Assembly (NCBI RefSeq): GCF_002159735.1
Contig: NZ_NFJF01000001.1
Location: forward strand, 124,001-188,000
DNA from: Olsenella sp. An270
GTDB lineage: Bacteria > Actinomycetota > Coriobacteriia > Coriobacteriales > Atopobiaceae
Direction: 5' to 3'
DNA length: 64,000 nt
Below are positions 32,895-41,363 of this stretch, piece after piece. Numbering within the stretch: the first letter of the stretch is position 1; the number at the start of each line of letters is the position of its first letter. A model generated the notes under the pieces. The model searched no databases, was not told the origin of the DNA, and was given only the letters and a program-made list of their open reading frames with translations. The position numbers were made by a program, and so were the translations under genes.

Positions 32895-33167
32895 ATGGTT
32901 TCTAAGCAGACGAGCATCATCAACGCCACCGGTCTTCACGCCCGTCCCGCGTCCGTCTTCGTGACCGAGGCCAAGAAGTACCAGTGCAACGTCACCATCA
33001 AGAACGTCGACAAGGACTCCGCTCCCGTCAACGCCAAGTCCATCATGATGATCCTGGCCGCCGGCCTCGGCACCGGCACCAAGGTCGAGATCGCGTGCGA
33101 CGGCGAGGACGAGCAGGCCGCCCTCGACGCCCTCATCGCCCTCATCGACTCCGGCTTCGGCGAGTAG
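32895..33167 (+). CDS. ptsH: phosphocarrier protein HPr
   Basis: 90 residues, ATG 32895 behind GGAAAGGAAG. Active-site His15 in ATGLHARPAS; the regulatory serine site is conserved as NAKSIMMIL (Ser49), so HPr kinase-type control is possible. It carries phosphate from enzyme I to sugar-specific EII proteins of the PTS. Monocistronic: its own upstream region and a strong terminator behind it. Confidence 0.97.
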   Translation: MVSKQTSIINATGLHARPASVFVTEAKKYQCNVTIKNVDKDSAPVNAKSIMMILAAGLGTGTKVEIACDGEDEQAALDALIALIDSGFGE

Positions 33168-33192
33168 TCACAACCCAAAAACCAGATCGGTT

Positions 33193-33226
33193 CGGCCCGG
33201 CGCCCCTGCGGTGCCGGGCCGTTTTG
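33193..33226 (+). terminator. intrinsic terminator of ptsH
   Basis: CGGCCCGGC (33193-33201) pairs with GCCGGGCCG (33213-33221), followed by TTTTGT. A standard GC-stem and short U-tract 25 bp after the ptsH stop. Confidence 0.85.
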
Positions 33227-33257
33227 TGTACGATGGGGTGCCGTGCTTTCGACTACG

Positions 33258-33365
33258 GTCGGCTGGCGAGAGGGGACGCGAGGTCCGCCGCGAGTTCCGC
33301 AGCCGCGCCCTGTGCGGCGAGGACTGTCCGAGCGCCGGACCTCGCGTCCCCTCTCGCCAGCCGAC
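33258..33365 (+). repeat. long hairpin with conserved loop upstream of tgt (element H)
   Basis: A 30-bp perfect stem (33258-33287 / 33336-33365) around a 48-nt loop that begins CCGCGAGTTC, contains GCCGCGCCCT...TGCGGC and ends CTGTCCGAGCGC. The loop is homologous to that of 24798-24889 although the stems differ completely. It ends 19 bp before the tgt start codon. No U-tract follows, so it is not an ordinary terminator. Confidence 0.9.
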
Positions 33366-33384
33366 ACCCACGAGCGGAGACACC

Positions 33385-34524
33385 ATGGACCAGACCCTCT
33401 TCACCTACGACATCGTCGCCGAGGACGTCGGCACCCACGCGCGCGCGGGCCTCCTGCACACCCCGCATGGCGACGTCCCCACGCCCATCTTCATGCCCGT
33501 GGGCACCAAGGCCACGGTCAAGGGCATCATGCCCTCCACGCTGCGCGAGATCGGCACCAAGATCCTGCTCGCCAACACCTACCACCTCTCCATGCGTCCC
33601 GGCGCCGACCTGGTGGCCGAGATGGGCGGGCTGCATGGCTTCATGCGCTGGGACGGCCCGATCCTCACCGACTCCGGCGGGTTCCAGGTCTTCAGCCACG
33701 AGGAGTTCTGCAGGCTCTCCGATGACGGCGTGCGCTTCCGCGCCGTGGACTACGACGGGAAGTGGGTCTCCTGGACGCCCGAGGAGAACATGTCGATCGC
33801 CCAGAAGCTCGGTGCGGACATCGTGATGCAGCTCGACCAGTGCGTGGGCTACCCGGCGTCGCGTGCCAAGGTCGCCCGCTCCGTGGAGCTCTCCAGCCGA
33901 TGGGCCGAGCGCTGCTACGCCGCCCACACCCGTCCCGACCAGGCCCTCTTTGGCATCGTCCAGGGCGGCATGCACCTCGACCTGCGTCTGAGGAGCCTCC
34001 GCCACCTGGAGGAGGTCGGTGACTTCCCCGGCTACGGCATCGGTGGCTACTCGGTGGGGGAGGACCACGAGACCATGTTCGAGACGCTCGCGCCGCTGGT
34101 GAGCGAGCACATGCCGCGGAACAAGCCGCGCTATCTCATGGGCGTGGGCAACCCGACCACGCTCGTGCGCGCCGTCGCCTGCGGCGTGGACATGTTCGAC
34201 TGCGTCCTGCCCACGCGCACGGCCCGCACCGGCTCCGCCTTCACGAGCGAGGGGCGCCTCAACTTCCGCCACGCCCGCTTCGCGCACGACGCGCGCCCCA
34301 TCGACGAGACGTGCACCTGCCCCGCCTGCTCGCAGGGCTTCTCCCGTGCGTACCTGCATCACCTCGTGCGTCAGCACGAGATGCTGGCGTCCGTCCTGAT
34401 CTCCCAGCACAACATCCACTTCCTGCTCGACCTCATGCGCCGGGCGCGCGAGGCCGTGGTCGCCGGCACCTACGCCGCCTTCCTCGACGACTGGATGTCC
34501 TCTCCCGCCGCTCGCGACTGGTAG
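33385..34524 (+). CDS. tgt: tRNA-guanine(34) transglycosylase
   Basis: 379 residues from ATG 33385; the frame is open further upstream but runs through the hairpin and has no start signal. Bacterial TGT motifs: TDSGGFQVFS with catalytic Asp96, GIVQGGMHLDLR, GGYSVGE and the zinc site CTCPAC...H near 310-341. It exchanges G34 for preQ1 in tRNAs with GUN anticodons, the first tRNA-level step of queuosine formation. Preceded by ptsH and its terminator; expression probably starts near the hairpin. Confidence 0.96.
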   Translation: MDQTLFTYDIVAEDVGTHARAGLLHTPHGDVPTPIFMPVGTKATVKGIMPSTLREIGTKILLANTYHLSMRPGADLVAEMGGLHGFMRWDGPILTDSGGFQVFSHEEFCRLSDDGVRFRAVDYDGKWVSWTPEENMSIAQKLGADIVMQLDQCVGYPASRAKVARSVELSSRWAERCYAAHTRPDQALFGIVQGGMHLDLRLRSLRHLEEVGDFPGYGIGGYSVGEDHETMFETLAPLVSEHMPRNKPRYLMGVGNPTTLVRAVACGVDMFDCVLPTRTARTGSAFTSEGRLNFRHARFAHDARPIDETCTCPACSQGFSRAYLHHLVRQHEMLASVLISQHNIHFLLDLMRRAREAVVAGTYAAFLDDWMSSPAARDW

Positions 34525-34575
34525 CCCGTCCGGGGGACCCGCACCCGCCGAACGGTTGTCGTCCGTAGCCTCTGG

Positions 34576-34581
34576 TACAAT
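34576..34581 (+). promoter_or_regulatory. -10 box of the recJ-rel transcription unit
   Basis: TACAAT lies 53 bp before the small ORF at 34634. The -35 region is poor (GGTTGT at a spacing of about 18-19). It is the only promoter-like sequence in the 190 bp between tgt and the RecJ-helicase gene. Confidence 0.45.
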
Positions 34582-34633
34582 CTTTCGCGATCAACAGACG
34601 GGGCGCGAGGCGCCCAGGCACGAGAGAACAGAC

Positions 34634-34714
34634 ATGACAGTCAAGAAGAACACGGCCCCGGCGGCTCGCGCCGGGCGCTGGTCCGTCCGTACCACGATCC
34701 GGGAGGGCCGCTAG
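34634..34714 (+). CDS. 26-residue upstream ORF before the RecJ-helicase gene
   Basis: ATG at 34634, TAG at 34712-34714, one base before the ATG of the next gene. The peptide MTVKKNTAPAARAGR... is basic (8 Lys/Arg, one Asp/Glu-type residue). The ribosome-binding site of the downstream gene (GGGAGG) lies inside its last codons, so translating it could affect initiation on recJ. It could be a leader peptide or a chance frame. No homologue recognised. Confidence 0.4.
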   Translation: MTVKKNTAPAARAGRWSVRTTIREGR

Positions 34715-34715
34715 C

Positions 34716-37700
34716 ATGGGCGGCCTCGCCGAGAGCCGCCGCTGGACGGTCCTTCCCTCCAATCGGGAGGCGGAGCGCTCGCTCGCCTCGGAGCTGGGCG
34801 TGCCGCCGCTCGTCGCGCGCGTGCTCGTGGCCCGCGGCCATGCCGACGCCGCCGACGCGCGCTCCTTCCTCAACCCCTCGCTCGACGCCTCGTGGGAGGA
34901 CCCGCTCCTCATTCCGGGCATGGCCGACGTCGCCGACCGCGTCGAGCGAGCCCTGGACGCCGGCGAGACGATCGCCGTCTTTGGCGACTTCGACGTCGAC
35001 GGCATGACCTCGACCTGCCTTCTCACGCTCGCCCTGCGCGAGCTGGGCGCAACGGTCCATCCCTTCATCCCGCATCGCTTCGGGGAGGGCTACGGCCTCT
35101 CGCGCGAGGCGCTCGCCCGTGTGCGGGAGACGTGCGACCCCGACCTCGTGGTCACCGTGGACAACGGCATCGCGGCGGCGAGGGAGGTCGAGTGGCTGCT
35201 CGGATGCGGGATCGACGTCGCCGTGACCGACCACCACGAGCCCGCCGACCTCGTCCCGGAGGGCGTGCCGGTGACCGACCCCAAGCTCTCGGAGGACTGC
35301 CCCTCCCGCGAGCTCGCCGGCGCGGGGGTCGCCCTCAAGCTCGTCTGCGAGCTCGGTCGCCGTCGCGGCCGCGGCGACCTCTGGCGCTCCTACGTCGACG
35401 TGGCGGCGCTCGGGACCCTCTCCGACATGATGCTGCTCGAGGGCGAGAACCGCGCCCTGGTGGCCGAGGGCGTGGAGTGCATGCGCCGCGTCACCCGTCC
35501 CGGCCTGGTGGCGCTCGCGGCGACCGCCGGCTGCGACCTCTCGTCCGTGCGCCCCGACGACCTGCCCTTCTCGATCATCCCGCGCCTCAATGCGGCCGGC
35601 CGCATGGGCTCGACCGACGTCGCGCTCGATCTTCTGCTCACGAACGACCCCGCCGAGGCGGCCGTGCTCGCCGCGCGGCTCGAGGCCGTGAACTCCGAGC
35701 GTCGCGAGGTGGAGTCGGCGCTCGCCGAGGCCGCGCTCGCCGAGGCCGAGCGCACCTACGACGGCGGTCGCGCCGTGGTCGTGGGTGGCGAGGGCTGGCA
35801 CGAGGGCGTGAAGGGAATCGTCGCCTCGCGGCTGGTCAACCGCTATCACGTGCCCTCGATCGTGTTCTCCGTGCACGACGGCGTCGCGCGCGGGTCCGGT
35901 CGCTCGGTCGGCACGGTCGACCTCTTCCATGCCGTCGAGCAGTGCTCGGACATGCTCATGCGCTTTGGCGGGCACGCGGGGGCGGTGGGCGTGACCTGCG
36001 AGGCCTCGCGCCTGGACGAGTTCAGGGCGCGTCTCGCCGCGGTTCTCGCCGAGCTCCCCGACGAGCAGTTCGAGGACGTCGGCGAGGTCACGGCGGTGGT
36101 CTCCCTCTCCGAGCTCACCGTCGAGACGATCGACGCCCTCGAGCGCCTCCAGCCCTTCGGCCAGGGCAACAAGCGCCCGCTGCTCGCCGTGTGCGGCGTC
36201 ACCACGCGCAACCGCGCCTGCGTGGGAGCCGACCTCGCCCATCTGCGCTTCGTTGCCACCGACGGCGTCAGCTCCGTCCCCGCGATCTTCTTCCGCGCCC
36301 CCGACGCCGAGCGGGCGTGCGCCTGGGACGGCGTCGTCGACGTCGTCTTCGAGGCGGTCAACGAGACCTGGCAGGGGCGCACCAAGCCCAAGCTCATGGT
36401 CAAGGACCTGCTCCTGCGCGACGGCGGTGAACCGGTCGACGACGCGCCGGACGAGCCCCCCGCGGGCGAGAAGGGCGTCGCCCCCGACCGCTCCCGCCGC
36501 GCCGCTCTCGCCCGGCTCTCAAGCGCCGAGCTCACCGACGCGCTCCGTCGCATGCTCATCGGCGACCGACCGCTTCTTCCTGCGCAGGAGCGGGCGCTGG
36601 CGATTCTCGACGCGGGCCGCTCGTGCCTTGCCGTCATGGCGACCGGCCGCGGCAAGTCGCTTGTCTTCCACCTGCACGCGGCGCGCGAGGCGATCTCGCG
36701 CGGCCGCGCGAGCGTGTTCGTCTACCCGTTGCGCGCCCTTGTCGCCGACCAGGCCTTCCACCTGCGCGAGCAGCTTGCCGCCGCGGGCGTCTCGGTCGAG
36801 GTCCTGACGGGCGAGACGCCGCAGGCGGAGCGTGGTCGGGTCTTCTCGGCGCTCGCGTCCGGCGCGGTCGACGTCGTCCTCACCACCCCGGAGTTCCTCG
36901 CCATCCACCGCGCGGACTTCGCGCAGTCCCGACGCGTCGGCTTCCTGGTCATCGACGAGGCCCATCATGCCGGCATGGCCGCCCCGGGCACGCGCGAGGC
37001 GTATCTCGAGCTGCCCGCCATCCGTCGCGACCTGGGCGAGCCGGTCACGCTGGCCGTGACGGCCACGGCTGCGTCCGACGTGGCGGAGCGGGTCTGCTCG
37101 CTCGCGGGCATCGACCGCTCCGACGTCGTCTGCGACCTCGCCAGCCGCGAGAACCTCCTCGTCGACGACTGTCGCGGGGTGCGCGACCGCGAGGCGGCGC
37201 TCGTGAGCATCGTCGCCCGGGGCGAGAAGAGCGTCGTGTACGTGCCCTCGCGCGACCTCGCGGTCTCCCTCGTCCGGACGCTTCGTCACAGCGTCCCCGA
37301 GCTCGCCGCCCGCATCGCCTTCTATCATGCCGGGCTCTCGCGCTCTACGCGCGGGCGCGTCGAGCGCGCCTTCCGCGGCGACGGCCTCGCCTGCATCGTC
37401 TCTACGAGCGCCTTCGGCGAGGGCGTGAACCTTCCCGGCATCCGGCATGTGGTGCTCTACGGCCTGCCGCTCGGCGGGGTCGAGTTCAACCAGATGAGCG
37501 GCCGCGCCGGTCGCGACGGCGCCAACGCCACGATCCACCTGCTCTTCGGCCAGCGCGACGTGGCCCTCGGCCAGAGGATCCTCTCCTCTGCGGCCCCCTC
37601 CCGCGACGACCTCGTCCTCGTCTACCGGACGCTCACCCGGCTCTTCCGCTCCGACGGCCCCATCGCCCTCGACGACTCCCAGATCGCCCGGGCGGCCTCC

Positions 37701-38009
37701 GAGCGCGCCTCGCTCTCGCCGATCGACGAGCGCGAGGTGGCCTCCGCCCTCACGATCTTCTCCGAGCTCGGCTTCTGCTCGGTCACGGGGTGGGGGGAGA
37801 GTCGGCGCGTGGTCATGGCCCCGTCCCCGGACCACATGGAGCTCACGCAGTCCGCCTGCTTCCTCGAGGGGCTCCGCGCCCGCTCCGTCTTCGAGGAGTT
37901 CTGCTCCTGGGTGCTCGACGAGCCCGCCGACGAGCTTCTCGCCCGCGTGAGGCGACCCATTTCCCCGGACTTCGGTATCATCGTTGGAATGAAGGGGGGA
38001 ACGATATGA
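34716..38009 (+). CDS. recJ: RecJ exonuclease fused to a RecQ-like SF2 helicase
   Basis: 1097 residues in one uninterrupted frame. Residues about 1-575 are RecJ: AVFGDFDVDGMTST (88-100), VTVDNG, TDHHEP (171-176), then DHHA1 FGGHAGAVGV (about 416) and the OB part up to LLLRDGG. Residues about 605-1080 are a superfamily 2 helicase: Walker A MATGRGKSL (about 640), VLTTPEF, DEAH box VIDEAHHAG (about 745), TATAA, STSAFGEGVNLPGI and motif VI QMSGRAGRDG (about 925). RecJ degrades single strands 5' to 3' and RecQ-type helicases feed it, so a fusion would couple the two. The stop overlaps the rel start (ATGA). Confidence 0.92.
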   Translation: MGGLAESRRWTVLPSNREAERSLASELGVPPLVARVLVARGHADAADARSFLNPSLDASWEDPLLIPGMADVADRVERALDAGETIAVFGDFDVDGMTSTCLLTLALRELGATVHPFIPHRFGEGYGLSREALARVRETCDPDLVVTVDNGIAAAREVEWLLGCGIDVAVTDHHEPADLVPEGVPVTDPKLSEDCPSRELAGAGVALKLVCELGRRRGRGDLWRSYVDVAALGTLSDMMLLEGENRALVAEGVECMRRVTRPGLVALAATAGCDLSSVRPDDLPFSIIPRLNAAGRMGSTDVALDLLLTNDPAEAAVLAARLEAVNSERREVESALAEAALAEAERTYDGGRAVVVGGEGWHEGVKGIVASRLVNRYHVPSIVFSVHDGVARGSGRSVGTVDLFHAVEQCSDMLMRFGGHAGAVGVTCEASRLDEFRARLAAVLAELPDEQFEDVGEVTAVVSLSELTVETIDALERLQPFGQGNKRPLLAVCGVTTRNRACVGADLAHLRFVATDGVSSVPAIFFRAPDAERACAWDGVVDVVFEAVNETWQGRTKPKLMVKDLLLRDGGEPVDDAPDEPPAGEKGVAPDRSRRAALARLSSAELTDALRRMLIGDRPLLPAQERALAILDAGRSCLAVMATGRGKSLVFHLHAAREAISRGRASVFVYPLRALVADQAFHLREQLAAAGVSVEVLTGETPQAERGRVFSALASGAVDVVLTTPEFLAIHRADFAQSRRVGFLVIDEAHHAGMAAPGTREAYLELPAIRRDLGEPVTLAVTATAASDVAERVCSLAGIDRSDVVCDLASRENLLVDDCRGVRDREAALVSIVARGEKSVVYVPSRDLAVSLVRTLRHSVPELAARIAFYHAGLSRSTRGRVERAFRGDGLACIVSTSAFGEGVNLPGIRHVVLYGLPLGGVEFNQMSGRAGRDGANATIHLLFGQRDVALGQRILSSAAPSRDDLVLVYRTLTRLFRSDGPIALDDSQIARAASERASLSPIDEREVASALTIFSELGFCSVTGWGESRRVVMAPSPDHMELTQSACFLEGLRARSVFEEFCSWVLDEPADELLARVRRPISPDFGIIVGMKGGTI

Positions 38010-40426
38010 GCATGAGCGACAACGAGGCCCGGGCGCCCAGGCCCGCGTCCGAGCAGGGGGGCGCCCCGCTGACCGTTCCGGCGCAGCCCTCCGGCGAGCC
38101 GAGGAAGGCCAAGAAGGCCGTCCCCGACGCCGCCAACTTCCGTCTCCTCCAGTCGGCCTGCGACGCGTACCTCGACGAGGAGGGTCGCGAGAAGGTCGAC
38201 CGAGCCTACCGCTTCGCCGCCGAGTACCACCGCGACCAGCGCCGTCGCTCCGGCGAGCCCTACATCAACCATCCCGTCGAGGTCGCGCTCATCCTCGCCC
38301 ATGACCTGCGCATGGACGAGGACACGATCTGCGCGGCCCTGCTGCACGACACGGTGGAGGACACTCCGGCGACGAAGGACCAGGTCGCCGAGCTCTTTGG
38401 CCCCACGGTCGCCGACCTCGTGGACGGCGTCACCAAGCTGACGTCCATCCAGGTCTCCTCGATGGACGCCAAGCAGGCGTGGAACCTCCGCAAGATGTTC
38501 CTCGCCATGAGCCGTGACATCCGCGTCGTCATCATCAAGCTGGCCGACCGCCTGCACAACATGCGCACGCTTGCCGCCCTCCCGCCCGACCGTCGCCTGT
38601 TCAAGGCGCGCGAGACGATGGACGTCTACGCCCCGCTGGCCGACCGCCTGGGCATCTCGTCGGTCAAGTGGGAGCTCGAGGACCTCGCCTTCTTCTGGCT
38701 CGAGCCCGAGGAGTACCAGCGCGTCGCCCGCATGGTCCAGGACTCCCGCGCCCAGCGCGAGGAGGACACCGACGCCGCCATCAAGACGCTCGACGACGAA
38801 CTCAAGGCGGCCGGGCTCACCGGCTACCAGATCACGGGCCGCCCCAAGCACCTCTGGAGCATCTACCAGAAGATGACCCGCAAGGGCCGCGAGTTCGCCG
38901 ACATCTACGACCTCATCGCGCTGCGCGTGATCACGCAGTCGGTGGGGGACTGCTACTCCGCCCTCGGCGCGGTCCACTCCCTGTGGAACCCGATGCCGGG
39001 CCGCTTCAAGGACTACATCGCCACGCCCAAGGCCAACCTCTACCAGAGCCTGCACACCACCGTGGTGGGCCCCGACGGCAAGCCCATAGAGATCCAGATC
39101 CGCACCGCCGAGATGCACGAGGCGTCCGAGTACGGCATCGCCGCCCACTGGCTCTACAAGAAGGAGGGCAACTCGCGCGGGCGCATGAGCGCCGAGGACC
39201 GCGCGATCGACTCCACGATCAACTGGATCCGCAAGACCCTCGACTGGGCGACCGAGGACGATATCGACGACCCGCACGAGTTCCTCGACAACCTGCGCGT
39301 GGACCTCTTCGAGCACGAGATCTTCGTCTTCACCCCCAAGGGCGAGGTCATGAGCCTGAGGCGCGACGCCACGCCGCTCGACTTCGCCTACGCCGTCCAC
39401 ACCGAGGTGGGCAACCACTGCGTGGGCGCCAAGGTCAACGGCGTCGTGGTCCCGCTGTCCTACAAGCTCCAGATGGGCGACCGCGTCGAGGTCCTCACCA
39501 ACAAGGGCGCCAAGCCCAGCCGCGACTGGATGAGCCTCGTCGCCATGCCCTCGAGCCGCGCCAAGATCCGCAAGTACTTCTCGACGCAGAACAAGAACGA
39601 CGACGCCGAGCAAGGGCGCACCGAGCTCGCCCACGAGCTGCGCAAGCGCGGCTACGGCATCTCCACGCGCCGCACGGTCAAGGCCATCGAGCGGGTCTGC
39701 GAGTCCTTCGAGCTGCGCAGCCCCGAGGACCTCTTCGCGAGCGTCCACACCGGCAAGGTCTCGGTCAAGCAGGCCGCCAACCGCATCGAGGAGATTCTCG
39801 AGGAGGGCTCGCCCGAGCAGCTCGCCGCCCAGGCCGCCGAGGCTGAGCGCCAGGCCGCCCATGAGCGCGCCATGATCTCGGGCGCGCCCGTCATGCAGTC
39901 CTACGCCATGACGCAGACCGCCAAGGGGCGCCGCAAGCGCAGCAACTGCGGCGTCGTGGTCAAGGGCGACCCCGATCTCCTCGTCCACCTCGCGCACTGC
40001 TGCAACCCGGTCGCGGGCGACGAGATCGTGGGCTTCGTGACGCGCGGTCGTGGGGTCTCGGTCCATCGGGCCAACTGCCCAAACGTCACCGACCTCATGA
40101 GGAACCCCGACCGCATGATCGAGGTTGCATGGGACACCTCCGGCGCCACGGAGTTCCGGGTCGAGATCGTCGTGGAGGCCACCGACCGCATGGGCCTTCT
40201 GCGCGACATCACCGTCGCCGTCGGGGACGCCGGGGCCAACATCCTCTCGGCGGCCACGCAGACCACGGCCCAGGGCGTGGCGCGCCTGCGCTTCCTCGTG
40301 GCCATCTCCGACGCGAGCCTGCTCGACGTCCTGCTCTCCGCCGTGAGCCGCGTGCCCTCGGTCTTTGACGCGCGCCGCATCATGCCCGGCGAGGGCGCCA
40401 ACCAGATGAAGCAGCGGGTGAAGTGA
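38006..40426 (+). CDS. rel: bifunctional (p)ppGpp synthetase/hydrolase Rel
   Basis: 806 residues from ATG 38006. Hydrolase HD domain: YINHPVEVALILAHDLRMDE and ALLHDTVEDT with ADRLHNMRTL. Synthetase domain: FADIYDLIALRVI, KDYIATPKANLYQSLHTTV, EIQIRTAEMHEASEYGIAAH. TGS domain (EIFVFTPKGEVMSLRRDATP) and C-terminal ACT (FRVEIVVEATDRMGLLRDI). Intact HD residues mean it both makes and degrades the alarmone. Downstream of the RecJ-helicase with a 4-bp overlap; a hairpin covers its TGA stop. Confidence 0.96.
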   Translation: MSMSDNEARAPRPASEQGGAPLTVPAQPSGEPRKAKKAVPDAANFRLLQSACDAYLDEEGREKVDRAYRFAAEYHRDQRRRSGEPYINHPVEVALILAHDLRMDEDTICAALLHDTVEDTPATKDQVAELFGPTVADLVDGVTKLTSIQVSSMDAKQAWNLRKMFLAMSRDIRVVIIKLADRLHNMRTLAALPPDRRLFKARETMDVYAPLADRLGISSVKWELEDLAFFWLEPEEYQRVARMVQDSRAQREEDTDAAIKTLDDELKAAGLTGYQITGRPKHLWSIYQKMTRKGREFADIYDLIALRVITQSVGDCYSALGAVHSLWNPMPGRFKDYIATPKANLYQSLHTTVVGPDGKPIEIQIRTAEMHEASEYGIAAHWLYKKEGNSRGRMSAEDRAIDSTINWIRKTLDWATEDDIDDPHEFLDNLRVDLFEHEIFVFTPKGEVMSLRRDATPLDFAYAVHTEVGNHCVGAKVNGVVVPLSYKLQMGDRVEVLTNKGAKPSRDWMSLVAMPSSRAKIRKYFSTQNKNDDAEQGRTELAHELRKRGYGISTRRTVKAIERVCESFELRSPEDLFASVHTGKVSVKQAANRIEEILEEGSPEQLAAQAAEAERQAAHERAMISGAPVMQSYAMTQTAKGRRKRSNCGVVVKGDPDLLVHLAHCCNPVAGDEIVGFVTRGRGVSVHRANCPNVTDLMRNPDRMIEVAWDTSGATEFRVEIVVEATDRMGLLRDITVAVGDAGANILSAATQTTAQGVARLRFLVAISDASLLDVLLSAVSRVPSVFDARRIMPGEGANQMKQRVK

Positions 40427-40455
40427 GACAAATGAACCTGTCCCCCTTGTCTCAC
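40423..40455 (+). repeat. TGA-stop hairpin element (TGAGACAAA family), copy 1
   Basis: GTGAGACAA (40423-40431) pairs with TTGTCTCAC (40447-40455) around a CCTGTCCCC-containing loop. The rel stop codon TGA (40424-40426) is part of the left arm. A second copy at 60369-60401, differing at about five positions over 32 bp, covers the stop of ilvA. It may terminate transcription, but no U-tract follows. Confidence 0.75.
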
Positions 40456-40469
40456 CGTGGGAGGTTGTG

Positions 40470-41105
40470 ATGGCCGAGAAGAGAGACGAGCTGCGGCAGT
40501 TCGTGGTGACGCCGCTGCAGACCAACTGCTATGCCTACGTGAGCGACGGGGAGTGCCTGGTCGTCGACCCCGGCGGCTCCGGGGCTCAGCTCGCGACCGT
40601 CCTCGACGACGTGCGTGTGACGTGCGTAGCTGCCACCCACGGCCATGGCGACCACGTCGGCGGCGTTGCGGCCCTCGTGCGCGAGACGGGTGCGCCCTTC
40701 GCGATCCACGCGGCCGACGCCGAGCTCGCGCGCCATGCGGGCGAGATGAGCGAGGTCGGCCGCAGCTACGACGAGAACGCACCGGACCCCGACCGCACGC
40801 TCGCGGAGGGCGACGTCCTCACGGTTGGCACGGCCACCTTCACCGTCATGGAGACGCCGGGCCATACGCCAGGCGGCGTCGTGCTCGTGGGCGGCGGCAG
40901 CGCCGAGGGGGTGGCCTTCGTGGGCGACACGCTCTTCCCGGGCAGCCACGGGCGCACCGACCTCAAGGGCGGCGACGAGGCGACCATCATGGCCTCGCTC
41001 GCGCGCATGGCGGCCCTGATCGCGCCCGACACGACCCTGCTCTGCGGCCACGGCCCCGCCACCACGATGGGCCGCGAGCTCGCAACGAACCCCTTCCTGC
41101 GCTAG
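40470..41105 (+). CDS. metallo-beta-lactamase-fold hydrolase, glyoxalase II-like
   Basis: 211 residues, ATG 40470 behind GGGAGG. Zinc motif THGHGDHVGG (His57, His59, Asp61, His62), then FTVMETPGHTPGG, FVGDTLFPGSHGRTD and CGHGPATTMGRE supply the remaining ligands. Small single-domain members of this group hydrolyse thioesters such as S-lactoyl conjugates. The gene neighbours rel, a common order in Gram-positives, but the substrate is not determined. Confidence 0.88.
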   Translation: MAEKRDELRQFVVTPLQTNCYAYVSDGECLVVDPGGSGAQLATVLDDVRVTCVAATHGHGDHVGGVAALVRETGAPFAIHAADAELARHAGEMSEVGRSYDENAPDPDRTLAEGDVLTVGTATFTVMETPGHTPGGVVLVGGGSAEGVAFVGDTLFPGSHGRTDLKGGDEATIMASLARMAALIAPDTTLLCGHGPATTMGRELATNPFLR

Positions 41106-41121
41106 GTACCCGCCCCCATCC

Positions 41122-41254
41122 GCGGTTTGGGTTCGCCGTTTTGTCCCCGCTGCTGTGCCTGCGTGAAAAAACGCTGGTAACGGGCTCGGGTCTTTCCACC
41201 TGAAGGTTCTTCTCGCATGACGATGAACCCAAACCGGAATCCGGTTTGGGTTCA
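41122..41254. repeat. hairpin element with three arm copies near tRNA-Leu (element D)
   Basis: A 14-bp perfect hairpin, TGAACCCAAACCGG-AAT-CCGGTTTGGGTTCA (41224-41254), plus a further CGGTTTGGGTTC about 100 bp upstream (41123-41134). Between them lie CCACCTGAAGG and the word GTTCTTCTCG (41206-41215). Three alternating copies of one locus-specific arm is the same plan as the 79-bp repeats. It is downstream of tRNA-Leu (minus strand) and of the hydrolase gene, so it could serve as a two-way terminator. Confidence 0.7.
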
Positions 41255-41278
41255 TATACGCAAAATTGCAGGAAAAGA

Positions 41279-41363
41279 TGGTGCCCGAGGCGGGGCTCGA
41301 ACCCGCACGAGTTTCCCCAACGGTTTTTGAGACCGTCGCGTCTGCCAGTTCCGCCACTCGGGC
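41279..41363 (-). tRNA. tRNA-Leu (CAA)
   Basis: The minus strand starts GCCCGAGTGGCGGAACTGGC and ends CGGGCACCA with encoded CCA. Acceptor GCCCGAG/CTCGGGC pairs fully. The anticodon loop CTCAAAA within ACGGT/ACCGT gives anticodon CAA. A long variable arm (TGGGGAAACTCGT) marks it as a class II tRNA, and the T arm GGGTTCGAGCC is standard. About 85 nt including CCA. A TATAGT -10-like box lies about 25 bp upstream on its strand. Confidence 0.95.

Follow-up and report, generated by a model that had tools for sequence, protein, structure and literature searches.

The cooperation of RecJ and RecQ, as two separate proteins, is well known. Some enzymes join an SF2 (superfamily 2) helicase to a second domain in one chain: HLTF and Rad5 are HIRAN and SF2 helicase proteins, and WRN, going by its PDB name, is a single-chain exonuclease and SF2 helicase. 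Staphylococcus aureus DinG with its 3'-5' exonuclease domain is likewise such a combination, according to PMC12345164. On its own, Escherichia coli RecJ degrades 5'-tailed DNA, and blunt or 3'-tailed ends need RecQ, a 3'-5' helicase; no evidence of direct contact between RecJ and RecQ of Deinococcus radiodurans was found, both statements being drawn from PMC4846377. Here we describe a gene of Olsenella sp. An270 (class Coriobacteriia, phylum Actinomycetota) that encodes, in one chain, a complete RecJ and behind it a complete SF2 helicase core. It lies in a 64,000-nucleotide stretch of DNA (RefSeq assembly GCF_002159735.1, contig NZ_NFJF01000001.1, positions 124,001 to 188,000 of the forward strand), which we call the window and by whose positions all features are given. 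DinG and WRN differ from the fusion in having a 3'-5' exonuclease and a different helicase, that of DinG being 5'-3'. The bacterial RecJs of known structure, from Thermus thermophilus, D. radiodurans, and S. aureus, resemble the window protein over the whole nuclease half, but among the matches listed they have 385 to 757 residues and no full helicase, which the window protein adds. The fusion is a real and conserved RecJ that apparently carries a working RecQ-like motor in its chain.

The RecJ and helicase parts share a single 1097-residue frame, as the preliminary description of this DNA had proposed. Five Pfam domains follow one another in the order DHH, DHHA1, RecJ_OB, DEAD, and Helicase_C, each above its Pfam cut-off (Table 1), and the protein scored 454.3 bits against the NCBIfam RecJ equivalog TIGR00644 (cut-off, 396.9). 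The nearest PDB sequences are RecJ for the first half and WRN, RecQ, RecQL4, and BLM for the second. An AlphaFold2 model built from an alignment of 48 sequences had a mean predicted local distance difference test (pLDDT) score of 89.7 and a predicted template modeling score of 0.81, with a single low-confidence linker at residues 573 to 586. With VIA-align, the nuclease part superimposed on D. radiodurans RecJ 6lrd with a Z of 53.5 and a root-mean-square deviation (RMSD) of 2.9 over 522 residues, and the helicase part on WRN 9rus/8yle with a Z of 29.9 and an RMSD of 4.7 to 5.1 over 364 to 371 residues. A free helicase translated from an internal start appears less likely: the two in-frame ATG codons within residues 560 to 629, at 561 and 613, show no obvious ribosome site by eye.

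Table 1. Window positions of the fusion gene, the parts of its product, and the gene that follows
Feature	Position	Strand	Details
recJ-helicase fusion gene	34716..38009	+	1097 aa, ATG to TGA, frame open throughout
DHH nuclease domain, residues 85-234	34968..35417	+	PF01368, E 1.1e-19
DHHA1 domain, residues 354-445	35775..36050	+	PF02272, E 1.7e-12
RecJ OB domain, residues 460-564	36093..36407	+	PF17768 (RecJ_OB), E 1.2e-21
Flexible linker, ~residues 566-598	36411..36509	+	pLDDT <50 at 573-586; site of HIRAN in many relatives, HIRAN absent here
Helicase lobe 1 (DEAD), residues 622-790	36579..37085	+	PF00270, E 1.9e-22
Walker A; DEAH	36645-36659; 36954-36965	+	within lobe 1
Helicase lobe 2 (Helicase_C), residues 828-935	37197..37520	+	PF00271, E 3.4e-21
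Motif VI GRAGRDG	37500-37520	+	within lobe 2
C-terminal winged-helix-like domain (from models), ~residues 960-1080	37593..37955	+	related to C-terminal domain of unfused RecJs
rel	38006..40426	+	ATG overlaps fusion-gene TGA by 4 nt (ATGA, 38006-38009)

Both halves look active from the residues they retain. In an alignment of the window protein with related loci (alignment A1, for which 121 same-frame loci gave 96 complete ones, 64 after an 85% identity cut, and 48 aligned; alignments A3 and A4 use 35 and 36 of these), the Walker A motif at residues 643 to 648 and the DEAH motif at 747 to 750 were invariant, as were Q926, G929, R930, G932, R933, and D934 of motif VI (QMSGRAGRDG, residues 926 to 935). 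We also checked 17 positions that we take, from the RecJ and helicase families, to be catalytic, and none of the 17 varied across the alignment, in which each position is occupied in 84 or 85 of the 85 rows. These comprised D91, D93, D95, D149, D172, H173, H174, D237, R296, and H420 in the nuclease and K647, S648, D747, and E748 (85/85 rows) with Q926, R930, and R933 (84/84 rows) in the helicase. The DHH/DHHA1 and SF2 motifs that had been reported for this frame are present, with their key residues invariant. Pairwise identities of the two halves correlate with a Pearson coefficient of 0.82 (75 proteins, 2775 pairs, uncorrected for kinship), as expected from joint inheritance; shared genome ancestry alone would also produce such a correlation.

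Judged by its sequence, the fused helicase is RecQ-like but is not RecQ itself, so the earlier label of RecQ-like helicase holds in this limited sense. It shares with E. coli RecQ, WRN, BLM, and RecQL4 the two-lobe SF2 core, Walker A, DEAH, and GRAGRDG, and motifs I, II, III, V, and VI are all present. Against the RecQ family model TIGR00614, however, it reached 166.6 bits, below the cut-off of 219.8 (NCBIfam). The window protein gave no match at an E value of ≤1 to the zinc-binding domain PF16124 or the RQC domain PF09382 and no match to HRDC (PF00570), a domain that is not universal among RecQs; it also differs from the family in having no QWG-type loop after DEAH and in its other, winged-helix-like C-terminal domain. 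In a tree of 50 helicase cores, RecQs and fusions were split with a support of 100/100. That tree held 25 of the 75 fusions, with RecQ as the only other helicase included; L220 was lost to a motif pattern mismatch, and, one fusion (L119) lying on a near-zero basal branch, only the split between fusions and RecQs is used here.

A survey across Actinobacteria, which the preliminary description had suggested, found the fusion throughout the class. The window protein was matched at an E value of ≤1e-30 in 145 of 149 Coriobacteriia genomes, and by hand count RecJ and helicase share one frame in 136. The latter figure consists of 132 genomes with a RecJ match in a frame of at least 1000 residues and four with shorter frames (G011, G025, G087, and G123) in which the match or matches in one frame run from RecJ to helicase. 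Frame length was the criterion for many of the 149 genomes; loci L001 to L134, partly selected via the helicase, were fetched and checked directly, and both halves share a frame in 121 of these 134. Seven matched genomes, being cut, split between contigs, or limited to a single half, could not be judged (G032, G061, G090, G119, G131, G135, and G141). One of the four genomes without a match, G103, later gave two helicase-part matches at 31 to 32% identity that look like separate RecQs. The searches of genomes centered on the phylum of the window. A draw of 246 genomes over that phylum contained the architecture in at least five genomes outside Coriobacteriia (G153, G246, G265, G285, and G362, the last cut near its end), and 103 of the 246 had no match at an E value of ≤1e-20. 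All five belong to a second class, where the fusion was found in 7 of 36 genomes (the other two being G382 and G388); in a sister family of that class, f67, RecJ frames have 843 to 862 residues in five genomes, except that one of the five has 703. Records matching the helicase part numbered 87, of which 80 were kept, and their titles name Coriobacteriia or members of the class or carry the broad names Actinobacteria, Actinomycetota, or Actinomycetes. The idea of a local oddity, arising by chance or by an assembly accident, is refuted by the wide occurrence in the class and the 121 same-frame loci.

The same distribution bears on whether the fusion might be an anti-phage or mobile-element system, for example one related to DpdF. 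The window protein does resemble DpdF weakly (115.3 bits), but this score is far below the cut-off of 550, the fusion is present in most genomes of the class, it stands beside rel in 96 of the 100 loci with room, and no phage record covers 80% of the window protein in one place; we regard such a role as very improbable. Plasmid records matching the helicase numbered 121, all below 60% identity and 11 of them over 80% of the helicase, and the annotated ones among ten listed are named RecQ. Some unverified records labeled as phage (L213 to L219; OR847107.1, MT839687.1, and others) carry a recJ that resembles bacterial chromosomal recJ and is probably contamination.

Many relatives carry a further domain between the two halves. 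The spacer between OB domain and helicase has 148 to 202 residues in 45 of 85 aligned fusions and 32 to 81 in the other 40, the window protein having 32. Every one of the 32 inserts scanned, from among the 45 HIRAN rows in the RecJ-core tree, matched HIRAN (PF08797; best E value, 4.3e-17), and HIRAN was over its cut-off in three whole proteins; the window protein had no Pfam match to it. Long spacers occur in environmental Coriobacteriia, in the second class, and in several animal-gut relatives (L051 to L058, L067, and L082), those with RUG names presumably being of rumen origin. On the RecJ-core tree, a quick tree with its long branches flagged, the trait changes six times, at least four of the changes being forced by starred branches, in a count that is blind to gain versus loss. 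Because the second class also has HIRAN, the simplest reading of these sequences is that HIRAN was ancestral to the fusion and then was repeatedly lost, mostly in host-associated families. The HIRAN domain of HLTF binds 3' DNA ends, and HLTF carries out fork regression or strand exchange. HIRAN-bearing relatives of the fusion have this domain beside an SF2 motor, as HLTF and Rad5 do, but the fusion differs from these in its RecQ-like motor and RecJ nuclease, and the window protein lacks HIRAN.

On balance we favor, with moderate confidence, a RecJ-family 5'-to-3' exonuclease acting on single-stranded DNA that is tethered to a RecQ-like SF2 motor, so that unwinding and digestion would be coupled. 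The ATPase and unwinding activities of the motor are predicted, and its 3'-to-5' polarity is taken from RecQ. The motor would load on the strand that is single stranded on its 3' side, which is the tail of a 3'-tailed end or, at a gap, the template, and would move 3' to 5' into the duplex, peeling off the 5'-ended strand. The displaced 5' end would pass straight into the RecJ channel and be digested, the tether providing this proposed handover. If the polarity is that of RecQ, both parts would advance in one direction, the motor along the 3'-ended strand and RecJ along the 5'-ended strand that the motor displaces. The predicted outcome is a longer 3' single strand on which RecA could load. In the HIRAN-bearing relatives, HIRAN may grip the 3' end and position the motor, a function that the window protein would do without. 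As the main substrates of the fusion we propose gaps and stalled forks; breaks may be left to an AddAB-like enzyme.

Several observations weigh against this coupled motor and nuclease. There is no tryptophan in the post-DEAH loop of 81 of 81 class fusions (a count that excludes four second-class rows), the aromatic-rich RecQ loop of the CISQWGHDF type being absent, and 20 of 20 class RecQs encoded as separate proteins have QWG there; the RecQ loop is believed to link DNA binding with ATPase activity. RecJ occurs without a fused helicase in genomes G007 (571 residues, L125) and G091 (584 residues, L200, where the match spans one TGA), and no helicase match at an E value of ≤1e-15 was found anywhere in either genome. 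The helicase thus is not strictly required, and it was probably lost in these two, as far as their sequences tell. Lineages f26 and f33 of the phylum have RecJ frames mostly of ~550 to 690 residues, which leaves hardly any space, or none, for a tail, and other RecJs carry only a dead version of the helicase part, as described below. Finally, the genome of the window has a separate full RecQ, a 651-residue frame with PF16124, PF09382, and HRDC.

G007 and G091 belong to genus code g32, in which G003 and G005 keep the fusion, and they offer natural deletion cases.

Separate recQ and addAB genes had been named as something to look for. The separate RecQ of the window genome rules out replacement of recQ by the fusion, since both are carried; within the class, PF16124 marked a separate RecQ in 52 of 99 genomes and found none in the other 47. 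A PDDEXK_1 match occurs in 58 of 59 class genomes, by eye often as neighboring pairs as in AddAB. In the window genome such a pair can be called AddAB-like only tentatively: the first frame scored 209.6 bits for PcrA and 194.3 bits for AddA (TIGR02785; cut-off, 707.65), both below cut-off, and the second gave an AddB match of 27.7 bits. This pair may take over part of the end resection at breaks, which makes gaps and stalled forks the likelier main substrate. In the preliminary description the fusion was presented as a single-chain resection machine. The single chain stands and coupled unwinding and digestion are its most plausible, inferred activity, but resection of breaks is less likely to be its main role.

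The RecQ and AddAB-like enzymes also bear on a different use of the motor, namely that it mainly remodels stalled forks by regression or strand exchange, like HLTF, while the attached RecJ cuts back nascent 5' ends; the tether would then serve delivery and not continuous unwinding and digestion. The inferred ancestry of HIRAN in the fusion speaks for fork remodeling, as do the AddAB-like pair, which could cover break resection, and the RecQ found in 52 of 99 class genomes. HIRAN is missing, however, in several lineages including the window protein, with both catalytic halves intact, and we consider this role unlikely but not negligible.

The second half of the fused helicase has relatives behind RecJs that lack the first. 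We aligned the tails of unfused Actinomycetota RecJs, 250 to 346 residues long, from 18 of the 26 loci L129 to L154 (alignment A2), leaving out the full fusions L130 and L131, the 67- to 69-residue tails of L132 and L136, the duplicate L153, the contig-end locus L154, and, without strong reason, L141 and L144. In a profile comparison, 35 fusion sequences of lobe 2 plus the C-terminal part matched the 18 tails with a score of 113.6 (E value, 7e-16; 223 columns), against a maximum of 20.3 among 100 column shuffles. For lobe 2 by itself the score was 50.5 (E value, 2.8e-7; highest of 60 shuffles, 19.6), and for the C-terminal part by itself it was 60.2 (E value, 1.2e-8; shuffle maximum, 14.2); lobe 1 scored 19.5, under the shuffle maximum of 20.3. 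RecQ was rejected as the source of these tails, its C-terminal half scoring 17.4, under the 20.3 from shuffles of the fusion profile. In the one tail shown in the alignment, motif V has given way to other residues and motif VI is deleted, and the tails should thus not be ATPases. The models give residues ~960 to 1080 of the window protein a pattern of helices and strands that we read as winged-helix-like, and the unfused tails weakly match a GntR-type regulator (E value, 0.0077) and ribosomal protein eS19 (E value, 0.0052), which fits this reading without proving it.

More distant RecJs show a fainter form of the same similarity. Six tails of 113 to 138 residues, on human-gut contigs filed as phage and, at a guess, from Clostridia, matched the C-terminal part with a score of 50.4 (E value, 3.4e-7; shuffle maximum, 24.1); fusion lobe 2 alone gave no profile signal with these six. 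In Bacilli, RecJ carries PF10141 (ssDNA-exonuc_C) in the same place behind the OB domain as the C-terminal half of the fusion, and the one such tail that was read (L213, on a Listeria-labeled contig; 222 residues; PF10141 E value, 1.6e-57) differs in having no room for the first lobe. PF10141 was matched in five control genomes, Bacillus subtilis and Lactococcus lactis among them. At an E value of ≤1, this family matched 15 of 35 fusion C-terminal halves (best, 7.7e-6); it also matched 4 of the 18 A2 tails (best, 2.8e-4). It had no match in the window protein and reached 19.2 bits on relative L070, below the cut-off of 26.4. The single Listeria-labeled tail scored 17.3 against the fusion profile, below the null maximum of 23.5, which weighs against kinship with Bacilli. 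Among structures, S. aureus RecJ 8y30 aligned over 721 of 756 residues with residues 7 to 1080 of the model at an RMSD of 18.1 (VIA-align), indicating that the domains are placed differently, and the Foldseek alignment of the two spans 1077 columns; the VIA-align range on the model ended at 568 for Deinococcus RecJ chains and at 837 or 835 for Thermus. A model of lobe 2 plus the C-terminal domain alone had RecQ and other helicases and no RecJ among the best 50 matches listed. Of the PDB sequences matched by profiles, the 23 found with A2 included no RecJ, and neither did the best 60 of the 311 found with A3.

From these sequence comparisons, a common origin of the C-terminal half of the fused helicase with the Actinomycetota RecJ tails is well supported, with the gut-contig tails it is fairly supported, and with the Bacilli tails it is probable but less sure. 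The C-terminal domain of unfused RecJs is probably what remains of this helicase, no longer functional as a motor. Of the two directions, decay from a full helicase is more likely, because it is difficult to see how evolution would have begun with half a motor that lacks ATPase motifs; the tree has no established root, and the tail-less lineages of the phylum must have lost the tail or never had one. The comparable Deinococcus RecJ domain has no defined homolog according to PMC4663267. We put at even chances a reading in which the RecJ of the ancestor of Actinomycetota and Bacillota was a helicase-nuclease with RecJ, HIRAN, a two-lobe motor, and a winged helix. Coriobacteriia and a few second-class lineages would have kept the working machine, and the other lineages would have lost lobe 1 as well as the ATPase motifs. 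The remnant, either a lobe 2 relic with the winged helix or the winged helix alone, would now be the RecJ C-terminal domain, reused for docking or structure.

Such remnants raise the question of whether the fused motor itself is weak, acting on RecJ or on bound proteins as an ATP-driven clamp or a remover of SSB or roadblocks and not in true unwinding. The missing aromatic loop, zinc, and RQC parts would fit a weak motor, as would the persistence of dead relatives of the helicase part in other RecJs. So would the binding of SSB and HerA by the C-terminal domain of D. radiodurans RecJ (PMC4846377 and PMC4663267, respectively), a possible relative of the fused helicase part. The checked ATPase and DNA-pairing positions, however, are unchanged in all rows, and the predicted two-lobe core closely matches helicases that unwind, which makes a weak motor improbable, more so than fork remodeling.

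Neither a RecJ-helicase or RecJ-HIRAN fusion nor a RecJ tail as helicase remnant was described among the open-access titles and abstract starts listed, which is weak evidence of novelty, subscription papers and bioRxiv being barely covered. The class-wide, natural single-chain form makes the coupling of RecJ and helicase testable in one molecule. The broader point, and the one most deserving of follow-up, is that RecJ tails elsewhere are probable relics of a motor. Several of the A2 RecJs (L137, L139, L140, L146, and L147) have a cysteine cluster, C-x3-C-D-x2-C, between OB domain and tail that is a possible metal site.

Downstream of the fusion gene is rel, named from the preliminary description and the sequence of its frame rather than by a family search. 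A same-strand downstream rel was found in 99 of the 100 loci with room (21 further loci had none), within ~124 nucleotides in 96 of them by extrapolated starts; three relatives (L093, L095, and L101) have a gap of ~2.9 kb between recJ and rel, and second-class locus L128 has no rel downstream. The fusion gene and rel had been described as cotranscribed, linking DNA processing to the stringent response. Cotranscription is likely, given the 4-nucleotide overlap and the adjacency in 96 of 100 loci, but the link to the stringent response comes down to a class-wide conserved gene order. A sigma-70 scan of positions 33000 to 41300 gave no promoter-like site. Just 5' of the recJ start ends a 26-codon mini-open reading frame (positions 34634 to 34714), and several near relatives (L033 to L039 and L046) have a start-like ATGA at about the same place. 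The folding of this region in the window was matched or exceeded by 2 of 200 shuffles (z, -2.66), and the region is a possible leader.

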